Assembly: GCF_018918155.1 (NCBI RefSeq) | Contig: NZ_JAHLPY010000010.1 | Coordinates: 1 to 64,000 of the forward strand | Source: Anaerostipes sp. MSJ-23 | Lineage (GTDB): Bacteria; Bacillota; Clostridia; Lachnospirales; Lachnospiraceae | Length of the DNA: 64,000 bases | Reading direction: 5' to 3' | Shown here: positions 15,781-20,877 of the stretch, one piece after another | Numbering within the stretch: position 1 is the first letter of the stretch | Layout: every line of letters begins with the position of its first letter | Translations under genes and position numbers: made by a program | The notes under the pieces: generated by a model | What the model was told of the DNA's origin: nothing | What the model saw: the letters and a program-made list of their open reading frames with translations, nothing else | Databases searched by the model: none

Positions 15781-16194
15781 TTACTTGTGATATGGTTGAT
15801 GATTTATAATCCGGTAAGCTCGGTAAATCTGTTCCAGCAATACAACTGCTGTCAAAGAATAATTCATAGAAAAAGAAGATAGATGAAATAAAGTTCCCTC
15901 TGGTTTTTCATTATCAATAAAATCACCGATAAAAAAGGTGATAACAGAGATTCCCTGAACAGACATTTTCTGAATGCGATCAGCAAATGCCGGGCTTGTC
16001 AAGCTCTCTTTTCCAGGTACAATATAAAAAACATTCTGTGCTTCTTTTTCATATTTCTTCATTTGTTTTTCATTCTTTATATATTTAATAGAAACATTTG
16101 CATAAGCCTGCAATCGTTTCAGATATTCATCCATAGCTTTCTTATACATCGGTTGTGCCTTTTTTTGAAAAAGGTAAATATAAAATTTCATCAT
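15781..16194 (-). CDS. Divergent RlmH-family protein: keeps the tail, lost the SAM site
   Basis: A 137-residue protein that aligns over its whole length with RlmH, the SPOUT methyltransferase of 23S rRNA pseudouridine 1915, but is about 20 residues shorter than usual. The C-terminus is well preserved: LLEQIYRAYRII (119-130) and the final PYHK. The SAM-binding features are not: the IGGxxG loop has become IGDFIDN (89-95) and the TFPHQLMRV segment has become MNYSLTAVV (110-118), losing the His and Arg. It is unlikely to bind SAM alone. Its start overlaps the upstream stop (ATGA). It may partner the tail-less RlmH at 20431-20877 (inference). Confidence 0.8.
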   Translation of the reverse strand: MMKFYIYLFQKKAQPMYKKAMDEYLKRLQAYANVSIKYIKNEKQMKKYEKEAQNVFYIVPGKESLTSPAFADRIQKMSVQGISVITFFIGDFIDNEKPEGTLFHLSSFSMNYSLTAVVLLEQIYRAYRIINHQPYHK

Positions 16195-16826
16195 GATATC
16201 TGACTACCTTTCAAAAATTTTTCCAATTTTTTATCAGATTTCTTTGCCTTTTCATAATCTCGACTGACCTTAGCAATCAATTCTTTCGTTTCACGATTGC
16301 TAAGACTTTCTTCTTTGGCGGCTGTAATTTCTTCCGGTTCACGATTTTCATTATTATAAAGAAAAAAAGAATTTCCTTTTTCTTCTACGCCATAAACGGA
16401 TAACCCTGGAGCCGGAGTAGAAATCCCCTTAATCTTAAGTTCATATGTAACATATACAATATAAGATTGATTGTTTGGTCCTTCTTCCACCCGATAAGAA
16501 AGATTCTGATATTTTTCTACATACTGCTGGAATTTTTTCTGTTGTTTTTTTAACATTTGAAAATCTTGCGTTACTTTTTTCAAATTTTCTCTATCATTCT
16601 TTTGTATCCATTGATAATAATCAGACATAAAAGCTTGTACTTTTTTCCTTTTTTCCTGCTGTTCTTTCTCTCTTTGATCTTCTTGTGTCTGCTTTCTGGA
16701 TATTTTTTCATTCGTAATCTTTTTTGCATACAGTAAATCTAGTTTTAAATAAGCAGATACACAGACTGCTAAAAACAAGATCCAACTAGATACAAGGATG
16801 ATAACCGTTGATTTTTTCAACTTCAA
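16191..16826 (-). CDS. Membrane-anchored protein with extracytoplasmic coiled-coil, function unknown
   Basis: About 211 residues. One N-terminal membrane segment (about STVIILVSSWILFLAVCVSA) is followed by a very charged, coiled-coil-like stretch rich in K, E and Q, then a globular part reminiscent of small NTF2-like extracellular domains, with a lysine-rich tail. I chose the TTG at 16826 because GGAGG lies 6 nt upstream. A frame-extending ATG at 16871 sits just 3 nt beyond a perfect TATAAT and would be a leaderless start. The stop overlaps the RlmH-like start. Confidence 0.65.
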   Translation of the reverse strand: MKLKKSTVIILVSSWILFLAVCVSAYLKLDLLYAKKITNEKISRKQTQEDQREKEQQEKRKKVQAFMSDYYQWIQKNDRENLKKVTQDFQMLKKQQKKFQQYVEKYQNLSYRVEEGPNNQSYIVYVTYELKIKGISTPAPGLSVYGVEEKGNSFFLYNNENREPEEITAAKEESLSNRETKELIAKVSRDYEKAKKSDKKLEKFLKGSQIS

Positions 16827-16874
16827 AACAGTCCTCCAGTTTTTATAATACAGTATTTCTTTGGATTTCATTAT

Positions 16875-16903
16875 ATTATACCATCTTTAACGTTAAAGGC
16901 AAA
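16875..16903 (-). promoter_or_regulatory. Promoter of the membrane protein/RlmH-like/DUF2156 operon
   Basis: TATAAT (16875-16880) with TTTGCC (16898-16903) at 17-bp spacing on the minus strand. Transcription would begin almost exactly at the ATG at 16871, which is why the downstream TTG with a ribosome site is preferred as the start. Confidence 0.55.
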
Positions 16904-16913
16904 GAAAATCAGA

Positions 16914-16957
16914 AAAAACGCTAAAATCTTTAAATTTATCATGATTTTAGCGTTTTT
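16914..16957 (-). terminator. Terminator after MATE gene
   Basis: AAAAACGCTAAAATC (16914-16928) and GATTTTAGCGTTTTT (16943-16957) form a perfect 15-bp inverted repeat just past the MATE stop codon, with T-rich flanks on both strands. Confidence 0.85.
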
Positions 16958-16977
16958 ATAAATAATAATAAAGTTTT

Positions 16978-18318
16978 CTATAGTTTTTCTTTTCTTCCAA
17001 TAATGTTTCTATATAAAAAAATCGAAACAATCGCGGTTATAATTTCTGCAACCCAAAAAGCATTCCATACACCGATAGCCCCCATAATACGACTTAAAAT
17101 GTAAGCTGCAGGGAGAATCACAACAACGTATCTTAGCAAAGAAACAATAAAAGAAGGACCTCCTTCACTAAGTGCCTCAAATGCTCCTGCACTTGTTACA
17201 GAAACTGCTGAAGCAAGGAATCCAATACTGATGAATCGTAATGCTTCTATACCAAGCTGTACGGTTTTCGGATTTTTTGTAAACATATTCATTAAACTTT
17301 GTGGAATTCCCATACAAAGAATTGTTCCAATAGCCATAATACCTAAAATAATAAACAAAGAAGTTCGATATATTTTTCCAACTCTCTTATATTCTCTAGC
17401 TCCATAATTATAACTAATCAGTGGCCTCATGCCCTGAACAAGTCCATTGGCAGTCATGTAAAGAAATGTCTGCAGTTTATAATAAATTCCAAGAACAACG
17501 ATATATGTCTGTGAAAAAGAAGCTAAAATTCCATTTAATGCGGAAACAAGAACTGATGGAAGTGCCATATTGAGCGTTGCAGGTATTCCAACAGAGTAAA
17601 GACGAATCCATAAATCTTTTTCTGGTTTCAGATATTTTCTTGATAATTGTACATTTAATGGATATTTTACATAAATAATCAAATAAATAATTAAGGTAGA
17701 ACACTGCCCAATCACTGTCGCAACGGCAGCACCTTCAATTCCCAAAACAGGAAAAGGTCCAAATCCAAAAATTAAAATCGGATCAAGAATAATATTAATC
17801 ATACATCCACATAACAAACTTGCCATCGTCACCATCATCTTTCCAACGGATTGGAATATTTTTTCAAATGTAATCTCTGATGTCACAACGACAGAAAAAA
17901 TAAGAACAATATTAGAATATTTTAATCCAAGGTGAATTAATGCTTCATTTTGTGTAAAGATTCTCAAAAAAGATGGCATAAAGAGAAGGCCTAAAATCAT
18001 TAAAATAATTCCATGAATTATATTTAAAAACAATCCTTGAGTGGCAGCTTTATTTGCTTTTTCTTTGTTCTGCGCTCCCAAAAAAATTGCAATAACAGCA
18101 TTTACTCCAACACCAAAGCCAACGCCAATGGATGTAATCAAATTTTGTAAAGGATATACCAAAGACAAAGCTGTCATGGCATCCTCACTAATCTTTGCGA
18201 CAAAAATACTATCAACGATATTGTACAGCGAATTAACAAACATTGATAGAATCATCGGCAACGCCATCGACATTAATAATGGAAAAACAGGTTTTTCTTT
18301 CATATAAATTTGATCCAT
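16978..18318 (-). CDS. MATE family multidrug/Na+-coupled efflux protein
   Basis: A 446-residue polytopic protein with about 12 membrane helices, the MATE length and layout. Family sequences such as LVYPLQNLITSIGVGFGVG and RPLISYNYGARE (the second-half repeat) are clear. Members exchange cations for organic cations, drugs or metabolites across the membrane; the substrate here is unknown. A GGAGG ribosome site fixes the start. It lies downstream of two tRNA genes, separated by a terminator-like hairpin. Confidence 0.9.
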   Translation of the reverse strand: MDQIYMKEKPVFPLLMSMALPMILSMFVNSLYNIVDSIFVAKISEDAMTALSLVYPLQNLITSIGVGFGVGVNAVIAIFLGAQNKEKANKAATQGLFLNIIHGIILMILGLLFMPSFLRIFTQNEALIHLGLKYSNIVLIFSVVVTSEITFEKIFQSVGKMMVTMASLLCGCMINIILDPILIFGFGPFPVLGIEGAAVATVIGQCSTLIIYLIIYVKYPLNVQLSRKYLKPEKDLWIRLYSVGIPATLNMALPSVLVSALNGILASFSQTYIVVLGIYYKLQTFLYMTANGLVQGMRPLISYNYGAREYKRVGKIYRTSLFIILGIMAIGTILCMGIPQSLMNMFTKNPKTVQLGIEALRFISIGFLASAVSVTSAGAFEALSEGGPSFIVSLLRYVVVILPAAYILSRIMGAIGVWNAFWVAEIITAIVSIFLYRNIIGRKEKL

Positions 18319-18352
18319 ATAATAATACCTCCAAAAATTTAAAAAATAAAAA

Positions 18353-18413
18353 AGACTATAGATTCTTCTATCTCTGTCCTGTTTAAAATCAGAAACAGAA
18401 AAATCTATAGTCT
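18353..18413 (-). terminator. Terminator or attenuator between tRNA-Arg and the MATE gene
   Basis: AGACTATAGATT (18353-18364) and AATCTATAGTCT (18402-18413) pair perfectly around a loop that holds an extra CTGTTT/AAACAG stem. On the minus strand TTTTTTATTTTTT follows. It ends the tRNA transcript, and because no separate promoter is obvious between it and the MATE gene, read-through control of the pump is possible. Confidence 0.75.
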
Positions 18414-18429
18414 CTCAGACAATATAAAC

Positions 18430-18502
18430 TGCACCAGGCGGGAGTCGAACCCGCGGCCAACAGCTTCGGAGGCTGCCACTCTATCCACTGAGTTACTGGT
18501 AC
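18430..18502 (-). tRNA. tRNA-Arg (anticodon CCG)
   Basis: A 73-nt cloverleaf. The acceptor arm GTACCAG/CTGGTGC includes one U-G pair and the discriminator is A. The anticodon stem GCAGC/GCTGT encloses loop CTCCGAA, giving anticodon CCG (Arg, codon CGG). The T arm carries GGTTCGACTCC. No 3' CCA is encoded, so it must be added by CCA transferase. Confidence 0.95.
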
Positions 18503-18574
18503 TTGTATTTTATTGTTATTAAAAAAATTTCATTAAATAAAAAGATAATCCATGGTTATCCACGGATTATAAAA

Positions 18575-18658
18575 TGCCGATGGTGGGACTCGAACCCACA
18601 CGTCCATAAGAACAACAGATTTTGAGTCTGTCTCGTCTGCCAGTTCCGACACATCGGC
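18575..18658 (-). tRNA. tRNA-Leu (anticodon CAA)
   Basis: An 84-nt tRNA with the long variable arm expected for leucine. Acceptor arm GCCGATG/CATCGGC, anticodon stem ACAGA/TCTGT, loop CTCAAAA, hence anticodon CAA (codon UUG). CCA is not encoded. It lies 72 bp upstream of tRNA-Arg in the same direction and shares its promoter. Confidence 0.95.
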
Positions 18659-18686
18659 GTATCCAATTATTTTTTCGACCTCAGAT

Positions 18687-18715
18687 ATAATACCATTAAA
18701 TAACATAACTGTCAA
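18687..18715 (-). promoter_or_regulatory. Strong promoter of the tRNA-Leu/tRNA-Arg operon
   Basis: A consensus TTGACA (18710-18715) and TATTAT (18687-18692) at 17-bp spacing, about 30 bp upstream of the tRNA-Leu 5' end on the minus strand. Confidence 0.8.
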
Positions 18716-18760
18716 CAAAAAAATAAAATTTTATTATTTTTATTTTTTAAAAGTACAATT

Positions 18761-18797
18761 GATGTGATATCCTCCTTACAAAAAACGGTATCACATC
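18761..18797 (-). terminator. Hairpin after the permease pseudogene, weak terminator
   Basis: GATGTGATA (18761-18769) pairs with TATCACATC (18789-18797). On the minus strand it is followed by AATTGTACTTTT, so the U-tract is poor. It is placed as the terminator of the decayed permease gene. Confidence 0.45.
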
Positions 18798-18832
18798 ATT
18801 GACTCATATACATATATTTAAATGATTCACTA

Positions 18833-19896
18833 TTAAGATTTTTTAGGCAGCACCAAACTAAGAATCAAGGATACTACAAAAACTCCTGCTACTGCATTCC
18901 CATTAAAGATATCTCCAACTTCTTTTGGAAACATTGAAAAAAAGTTTCCAGATGTCTGTGTAAGACCCACTCCAATACAAAACGCTAAAGATACAATAAC
19001 CATCGTACGATCATCAAATTCACATTCCTTTAACATTTTAATTCATACATAATTGATCCAAACATCATAACAGTGCACCCACCTAAAACTGCCTGCGGAA
19101 TCGAATAATGCCCCAAGTGGTGGAAACAAAGAAGCCAAAATTAAAATCAGAGCCCCCATTAGAATCGTAAAACGGTTGATTACCCCCGTCATTGTGACAA
19201 GGCCAACATTTTGACTAAATGATGTTAATGGGAGGCATCCAAAACAGGCAGAAATCGCACTAGAAAACCCATCTACTGCCAAAGATCCCTGTAATTCTTC
19301 CATTTTAATATCACGCTTTAATGCGCCTGTACAAACAGCAGTTGTTGCACCGGTCGTTTCTGCTGCCGATACAAGGAATACGATCGCAATTGTAAAAAAA
19401 GCTCCAATATTAAATATCGGCTTATGATTCGCAAGAAATACTAGTTTTGGAATGCTAAAAACTCCAACTTGCTGAATTGTTTTCGAAATTCCGGAAAAAT
19501 TAACTAAAGGAGCTATTCCCGTTACTGTAAAAACAATAGAAAGCAAATATCCAAGTACCAAACCGACTAAAACATTTAAGTTTTTATAAATGCCTTTTAG
19601 CAAATATCTAGATACTAAACAAATAAAATTTTCCAGATGGGATATAACTGAAGGCATGTACCAATCCCTGCGACAAACATCGCACATTGAAGTATCTGCG
19701 TAATTTCTGCAGAAGTTAAATGATTATTAGTCCCACGTACAAAAGCCGCACTACATACAATCAATACTGGGGCAAGATTTGATACAAACATTGCCAGTAC
19801 ATGCTGCAAGCCAAATGGAATCGCCTTTGATAAAGGAACTCTTCCATTCAGCCTATAAATATTTTCTACACTGACATGATCTTTTTGATTTTTCAT
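18833..19896 (-). pseudogene. Purine/xanthine permease (NCS2 family), broken by several lesions
   Basis: Three reading-frame pieces together make a shortened nucleobase:cation symporter-2. The first (19896-19615) begins MKNQKDHVSVENIYRLNG and has the conserved FGLQHVLAMFVSNLAPVL. After LQLYPIWK the frame breaks and roughly 100 residues of the family sequence are missing before YLLKGIYKNLNVLVG. The second piece includes FLVSAAETTGATTAVC and GCLPLTSFSQNVG. Near 19107 a 5-nt deletion, apparently one copy of a CGATT repeat, shifts the frame again. A one-nucleotide loss in an A-run near 19040 precedes the last piece (19036-18833), which ends LVLPKKS. RBS and start are intact, suggesting fairly recent decay. 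Confidence 0.88.
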
Positions 19897-19969
19897 TTTA
19901 AAATCCTTTCCTTTTTCTTATTTTTTACTTTGTCATTTTTTGTAAGTAAATACAACTGCAGAGATTTCC

Positions 19970-20022
19970 TATAATTTTTGACATTCAAAGAAAAAAGAAT
20001 TAAAATGAAAAATCTAAGGAGG
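19970..20022 (+). promoter_or_regulatory. -10 element and ribosome site of the thioesterase gene
   Basis: TATAAT (19970-19975) lies upstream of AAGGAGG (20016-20022), which is 9 nt before the ATG at 20032 and decides that start over an in-frame ATG further upstream. No convincing -35 box is seen at 16-18 bp. Confidence 0.55.
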
Positions 20023-20031
20023 CCTTTATTT

Positions 20032-20445
20032 ATGGAACATATTTCAAAAATTGAAGTTCGTTATGCAGAAACCGATCAAATGGGAATTGCACATCACAGC
20101 AATTATCCCATTTGGTTCGAGGTAGCGAGAACCGATTTTATCAAAGCTGCAGGGATTTCTTATACCAATGTGGAAAAAGAAGGAATTATTTTACCGTTAA
20201 CCAGTTTGGAATGCAAATATAAAAAAGCAGCTTTTTACGAAGATCAACTAGAAATCCATGCTAAACTTACAAAATTAACTCCAGTACGTGTAGAATTTAC
20301 TTATCATGTAACTAGAGGAGATGATCTAATCGCTGTTGGAAAAACCGGACACGGAATGGTAAGTAAAGATCTACATCCGATTAATGTAAAAAAAGAACAT
20401 CCAGATCTTTACCAAATGTTTTCATCTGTATTAGAGACGGCTTAA
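20032..20445 (+). CDS. Acyl-CoA thioesterase (4HBT/YbgC hotdog family)
   Basis: A 137-residue hotdog-fold thioesterase. The catalytic region YAETDQMGIAHHSNYPIWFE, with the conserved Asp followed by G and H-x-N-Y, is typical of YbgC-type enzymes that hydrolyse acyl-CoA esters; the substrate is unknown. The start is set by the AAGGAGG. Its last 15 bp overlap, tail to tail, the 3' end of the truncated rlmH, so whatever event placed this gene here may have removed the RlmH tail. Confidence 0.88.
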   Translation: MEHISKIEVRYAETDQMGIAHHSNYPIWFEVARTDFIKAAGISYTNVEKEGIILPLTSLECKYKKAAFYEDQLEIHAKLTKLTPVRVEFTYHVTRGDDLIAVGKTGHGMVSKDLHPINVKKEHPDLYQMFSSVLETA

Positions 20446-20877
20446 CTGCTCAGTTAAAATGACTCTCATCAACTGATGAGGAAATGTCATCTGACTGAAG
20501 CTTAATTTCAGATTAGAACGAGATACAACTTGTTTGGAAAGTCCTAAAGAACCACCAATGATAAATGTGACACATGGAATCGACTGTCGTTTCCACTGTG
20601 TCCATTTTTTTACAAAACTTTCGCTAGAAAGAGGTGTACCTTCAATACAAAGTACGACTATTAGACTTTCTTCAGGAATTTTTGCAAGAATTCTTTTTCC
20701 TTCTAATTCTTTAATTTTCATATTTTCTTTTTCCCCGGCATGATCTGGTGTCTGTTCATCTGCAAGTTCAATTACTTCAAATGAATACTTTTTTTGAATC
20801 TCTTTCGCATATGTATCCATCAACTCTCTTAAATAACCTTCTTTTAATTTTCCAACACAAATGATCTGTATTTTCAT
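20431..20877 (-). CDS. rlmH: RlmH 23S rRNA (pseudouridine-1915-N3)-methyltransferase, lacking the C-terminal tail
   Basis: A 148-residue SPOUT methyltransferase; the family is about 155-160 residues. The SAM-binding loop IIGGSLGLS (106-114) and the knot segment MTFPHQLMRVILTEQL (130-145) are intact. The protein then ends SRL, where the family continues with YRA and a tail ending in YHK or YHR. None of the downstream frames encodes that tail; the DNA past the stop is thioesterase coding sequence. The tail is known to supply catalytic residues to the partner subunit, so a homodimer should be inactive. A paralog that keeps the tail is at 15781-16194. A strong AAGGAGG ribosome site precedes the ATG. 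Confidence 0.9.
   Translation of the reverse strand: MKIQIICVGKLKEGYLRELMDTYAKEIQKKYSFEVIELADEQTPDHAGEKENMKIKELEGKRILAKIPEESLIVVLCIEGTPLSSESFVKKWTQWKRQSIPCVTFIIGGSLGLSKQVVSRSNLKLSFSQMTFPHQLMRVILTEQLSRL

Follow-up and report, generated by a model that had tools for sequence, protein, structure and literature searches.

Introduction

RlmH (also YbeA or OrfX; PF02590, COG1576) is the N3-methyltransferase of pseudouridine 1915 in 23S ribosomal RNA (rRNA). The known enzyme is a homodimer with an S-adenosylmethionine (SAM) site and a C-terminal tail on each chain, whereas two genes of the gut bacterium Anaerostipes sp. MSJ-23, here termed A and B, appear to carry these parts separately. Both lie in a 64,000-nucleotide stretch (contig NZ_JAHLPY010000010.1, positions 1 to 64,000), which is referred to as the window. 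The two monomers of E. coli RlmH play different parts once SAM is bound: the SAM pocket, K11, K42 and R43 come from one, and the C-terminal tail along with R25, R26, R142 and R154 from the other (Koh et al. 2017, PMC5430550). Only one of the two SAM sites is filled below 500 µM, and the variants E138A/Q, Y152F, H153F and R154A are inactive but still dimeric and SAM-binding (PMC5430550). The original prediction, made from the letters of the window, had described this asymmetric dimer, with SAM on one subunit and the tail from the other, correctly as published (PMC5430550), and had proposed that A and B have each specialised for one half of the site. According to the analysis reported here, A and B probably form an obligate heterodimer, a split RlmH making m3-pseudouridine 1915 of 23S rRNA.

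Gene and protein features

The features of the two genes are as follows (residue numbers are those of E. coli RlmH).

20431-20877, minus strand: gene A, tail-less RlmH, proposed SAM-binding subunit, 148 amino acids (NF000985 and PF02590 matches, AlphaFold2 model)
20539-20559, minus strand: bight 2 of A, SAM loop IGGSLGL (I102-L108), invariant in a first set of 19 A proteins
20464-20487, minus strand: bight 3 of A, TFPHQLMR (T126-R133); T126, P128 and H129 in 40/40 A proteins
20431-20451, minus strand: C-terminus of A, EQLSRL and stop, YHK tail absent; Y152 and H153 in 0/40 A proteins
15781-16194, minus strand: gene B, short RlmH paralog, proposed tail-bearing subunit, 137 amino acids (136 from the second ATG) (PF02590, AlphaFold2)
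16111-16128, minus strand: EYLKRL motif of B (E22..R25-R26), the rRNA-binding basic residues of the tail subunit; K25 and R26 in 40/40 B proteins
15910-15930, minus strand: degenerate bight 2 of B, IGDFIDN where A has IGGSLGL; G107 in 0%, G104 in 7% and S105 in 10% of B proteins
15820-15834, minus strand: EQIYR of B (E138..R142); Q139, Y141 and R142 in 40/40 B proteins, E138 in 39/40
15784-15792, minus strand: catalytic tail YHK of B (Y152-H153-R154), in 40/40 B proteins

Both genes are intact open reading frames. Gene A contains IIGGSLGLS and TFPHQLMRV, and its protein ends in ...ILTEQLSRL, followed by the stop codon TAA. The NCBIfam model NF000985 (RlmH) matches protein A with 177.3 bits, above the cut-off of 172, aligned over 1-147 of 159; PF02590 matches with 152.8 bits (cut-off 27), aligned over 1-143 of 154, so that the C-terminal tail is uncovered. 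Protein B ends in LLEQIYRAYRIINHQPYHK, and its SAM-loop positions are occupied by IGDFIDN and MNYSLTAVV. It is matched end to end by PF02590 with 75 bits (cut-off 27, E 8e-21); with the RlmH equivalog models of NCBIfam, however, it scores below each of the cut-offs (at best 62.6 against 172). The reading frames and profile alignments thus confirm what had been claimed from the letters of the window: an A with both SAM-binding motifs that stops at EQLSRL without a tail, and a B that keeps the tail and has other residues in place of the SAM-binding parts. In 15 genomes examined, no frame carried YHK or YHR within 250 nucleotides 3' of the stop codon of A, and a tail hidden in another frame or reached by stop read-through was therefore rejected for them.

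Regarding the structures predicted by AlphaFold2 for the monomers, the predicted local distance difference test score (pLDDT) was 93.6 for A and 92.1 for B. The solved structures closest to the A model were those of RlmH/OrfX, with a template modelling (TM) score of 0.96 to 4fak. The B model shows the knotted SPOUT fold of RlmH (Z 18.0, root-mean-square deviation 2.0 over 133 residues to 1to0, the B. subtilis RlmH) and gave Z scores of 16.9-18.0 to RlmH structures versus 9.5 to the next family, TrmD. This fold is common to A, B and RlmH.

Partition of conserved residues

An alignment of 120 canonical RlmHs, 40 A proteins, 40 B proteins and E. coli RlmH contained 41 sites with a conservation of 95% or more among the canonical proteins. 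When counted over 29 non-redundant pairs, with a site regarded as kept at 80% or more, A alone kept 24 sites and B alone kept 14, whereas E138 was shared by the two and L137 and P151 were lost from both (Spearman -0.78, Fisher p = 4.8e-8); an earlier sequence set gave the same picture. The sites retained by A were G9, K12, D40, E41, E56, L72, G76, I102-G107, S121-S123, T126-Q130 and R133, and those retained by B were E22, Y23, K25, R26, L27, Y30, S81, Q139, Y141, R142, I146, Y152, H153 and K154, most of the latter in 40/40 B proteins. As far as the aligned sequences indicate, this partition is the one to be expected from the asymmetric active site described for E. coli RlmH (PMC5430550), and A and B jointly hold every residue shown to be essential there. 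The count supports the proposal that each protein is specialised for one half of the site.

The three SAM-binding bights (L72, GGxxG 103-107 and T126-H129) are present in 39-40 of the 40 A proteins; within bight 2, G103, S105 and G107 occur in all of them and G104 in 39. Unlike in A, bight 2 is degenerate in B, and neither the glycine loop nor the PH motif is kept there (G107, P128 and H129 0%, G104 7%). The catalytic tail Y152-H153-R/K154 has the reverse pattern, with Y152 and H153 in none of the A proteins and R142, Y152, H153 and K154 in all 40 B proteins, which also keep E138 in 39 cases and thereby the E138-R142-Y152 triad. The sole B with lysine at E138 (LYKQIYRAYR; L293) is that of genome G809, where A ends in LLDQIRHIIE. 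The motif E22..K25-R26, which is retained by B and lost by A (R26 in 8/40 A versus 40/40 B proteins), is a further reciprocal feature that was absent from the original prediction.

Distribution of the pair

The source genome (Anaerostipes, 2.52 Mb, 99.4% complete) contains A and B as its sole two PF02590 matches; a third family member was not found in the profile search of this genome, and the third full-length rlmH that would have spoken against a split enzyme is thus missing from it. Each of the 11 Anaerostipes genomes has a single A without the tail and a single short B with it, and no other family member. The tail-less A can thus be put down neither to chance nor to a sequencing error or a deletion confined to this genome, and an A with the normal tail does not occur in any of its relatives in the genus.

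Surveys of about 1,000 genomes yielded 41 A and B pairs, which stem from 12 or more families of the phylum and were all inspected by eye as translations. That a tail-less RlmH and a paralog lacking the SAM site are conserved together, which had been suggested as a check, is thereby borne out. Among 299 genomes of the family of Anaerostipes, the tail-less A occurs where B occurs, and the other RlmH-bearing genomes have one full-length gene; the few exceptions were cuts at contig ends, which were read and excluded. A profile of B run over 397 genomes of this family separated B (at least 133 bits) from canonical RlmH (at most 110 bits) and added one genus, in which A is also present. Besides Anaerostipes, the pair was found in nine further genera of its family, in five more families of the order, in three more metagenome-assembled genomes, in five families from the rest of the class, and in one family that lies beyond the class, though still inside the phylum, and probably represents a second class. 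A canonical RlmH alongside A and B was not found in any pair genome scanned with PF02590.

Several candidate pairs were rejected. In G264, G105 and G073 reading of the locus revealed one gene divided by contig ends, and in G276 the gene was full-length but divergent. Three more were excluded on match coordinates only, G482 as apparently one gene divided by contig ends, and G691 and G506 as having one copy apparently disrupted by a frame break. The single full-length RlmH of G276 (C26:30763-31233, L060) has the altered motifs IAGSLGPG and TFTHLMTR and is a candidate for changed function. A tail-less A-like protein with TFTHRLTR in place of TFPHQLMR was seen in G510 (C194:4750-5190, L217/L235), where no B was found; in the family of G510 (f4), RlmH is mostly absent altogether. 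Several near-complete genomes, e.g. G127, G145, G408, G415 and G420, yielded no RlmH match at E 0.001, and RlmH may thus be dispensable in some lineages.

Selection, gene arrangement and history

Pairwise ratios of nonsynonymous to synonymous substitution rates (dN/dS) with unsaturated dS ranged from 0.04 to 0.16 in A and from 0.06 to 0.19 in B (one comparison of near-identical B genes, which had very few changes, was left out of the range). Purifying selection acts on both genes.

Within the window, A and B share a strand and are separated by 4.2 kb that contain other genes. Of 33 tabulated pairs, 17 have no more than 500 bp between the genes (12 converge tail to tail, and five are in tandem with A first), and in 10 further ones the distance is at most 5 kb. 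The tandem order A-B occurs in G268, G640, G701, G764 and G809; G846 is tandem with overlapping frames. The most reduced version of the pair was seen in G764, a 1.5 Mb single-contig genome, with a very diverged A (130-residue frame) and B directly 3' on the same strand (C1:1494966-1495702; L287, L294).

In the phylogenetic tree, the B proteins form one clade apart from canonical RlmH (support 99/97), albeit on long branches. The best tree does not unite the A proteins, but their monophyly was not rejected either (approximately unbiased test, p = 0.20). Both proteins evolve faster than the single RlmH, as seen from long branches. In genus g361 (family f20), A groups with the canonical RlmH of its own family (99/96), with which it shares 67-68% identity, and B is closest to the B of family f3 (56% identity; 96/85). 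In a tree of rpoB, the 12 sampled pair genomes of the family of Anaerostipes form one clade and pairs elsewhere are scattered; at least six changes are needed. It is about as likely as not that RlmH was split into an obligate heterodimer repeatedly, or that B spread horizontally and let resident RlmHs lose their tails; either way, an enzyme that ranks among the smallest rRNA methyltransferases would have turned into a two-gene enzyme several times across Bacillota. Old descent followed by losses would be the alternative. One genus holds both a pair genome (G463) and a genome with a single canonical RlmH (G444). The mutual replacement of pair and single gene is the best indirect evidence that the two proteins carry out the job of RlmH. 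The identities of A and B were also correlated in a mirror-tree comparison (r 0.85); this correlation is given no weight here, since shared descent is enough to produce it.

Elsewhere in the window, a nucleobase-permease-like gene at 18836-19896 (minus strand) looks disrupted; its frames 19615-19896 and 19043-19687 overlap out of frame, and more coding-like sequence is located below 19040.

Proposed mechanism and alternatives

In the proposed mechanism, A would be a permanent SAM monomer, equipped with all three bights that bind SAM and with the basic residues on the SAM side. B would be a permanent tail monomer, which has lost its own SAM site but keeps the catalytic YHK tail, the triad E138-R142-Y152, the two basic residues R25/R26 and the knotted fold. 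In a head-to-tail dimer the tail of B would swing over the SAM of A, which would give one composite active site per A-B dimer. A-A homodimers are expected to be inactive because they would have no tail (Y152, H153 and R154 are missing, cf. the published mutants), and B-B homodimers because they would bind no SAM. From the observed sequences, losses, co-occurrence, selection and replacement we infer heterodimer formation, activity and the pseudouridine-1915 target, which go beyond these observations.

Several points weigh against this interpretation. The structural evidence for A and B consists of monomer models only and says nothing direct on a heterodimer. B was found without A in G464 and G718, and an A-like protein without B in G510 (all three are fragmented drafts, 92-98% complete), and the B of G809 has lysine at E138. 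Most close pairs are convergent genes on opposite strands, and the distance between A and B reaches 38 kb in Anaerostipes, so that the two are not always co-transcribed. Their co-occurrence partly reflects shared descent, and the partition test handles relatedness solely by dropping near-duplicates. The alignment behind this test is uncertain at residues 40-56, and the placement of sites around them is less certain because B proteins have a deletion there.

It was also considered that A alone might be an active RlmH without a tail, using its own alpha-carboxylate or another residue, and that B might be a non-catalytic regulator or ribosome-binding factor. The score of A above the NCBIfam equivalog cut-off would fit this, as would the fact that some orthologs end at H153, with the terminal carboxyl discussed as a possible base (Koh et al., PMC5430550). 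This explanation is nevertheless improbable: A has lost the tail-subunit residues E22, R26, Y30, Y141 and often R142, exactly those that B retains, mostly invariant in 40/40; each of Y152F, H153F and R154A abolishes the activity in E. coli (PMC5430550); and A without B was seen only once (G510). A heterodimer of A and B might instead have a new specificity and act on another rRNA position or on transfer RNA (tRNA). The long branches of the pair are compatible with such a change, and the putative target is deduced from sequence; but among related species the pair stands where others have one canonical gene (G463 versus G444), the pair genomes scanned with PF02590 contain no canonical RlmH, and the rRNA-facing residues of both halves are conserved between the two subunits. 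We regard another target as unlikely to a similar degree. Ordinary decay of one or both genes, without a joint role, would account for the parts of the family consensus that are absent from both proteins. It is already contradicted by dN/dS values well below 1 for A and B, by the same residues being lost and kept in more than 40 genomes of at least 12 families, and by the loss of only 2/41 conserved sites from both proteins, and has next to no probability. The split RlmH is the explanation preferred here.

Significance and comparison with known systems

A report of a split or heterodimeric RlmH was not found in searches of open-access literature. If the split is true, it would be a natural experiment that tests the asymmetric half-of-sites mechanism of E. 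coli RlmH residue by residue; this mechanism had been inferred from a homodimer, and evolution appears to assign each residue to one subunit. It would also be a bacterial case of a homodimer turned into an obligate heterodimer, with related species that still have the single gene, and could help to decide between adaptive and neutral origins of such complexity. In annotations, the pair will probably appear as two RlmHs, or as RlmH and a hypothetical protein, and predictions of m3-pseudouridine 1915 in gut Clostridia depend on recognising both.

Among other methyltransferases, Trm6 is a non-SAM-binding subunit. The tRNA m1A58 methyltransferase Trm6-Trm61 resembles the proposed A-B dimer as a two-subunit enzyme in which a related subunit completes the site; it differs in being a eukaryotic, tetrameric Rossmann-fold enzyme that acts on tRNA and has no sequence relation to A and B (PMC5007650). 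Ymr310c is, like B, a SPOUT paralog, earlier proposed as a non-catalytic heterodimer subunit, but it is a eukaryotic member of COG2106, the proposal was a prediction only, and it is not an RlmH (PMC1829167). METTL3-METTL14 and the enzyme-prozyme pair of trypanosome PRMT1 likewise combine a catalytic subunit with a required inactive paralog (PMC10908127). These pairs are eukaryotic (PMC10908127), and in the proposed A-B dimer the 'inactive' paralog would itself bring catalytic residues.

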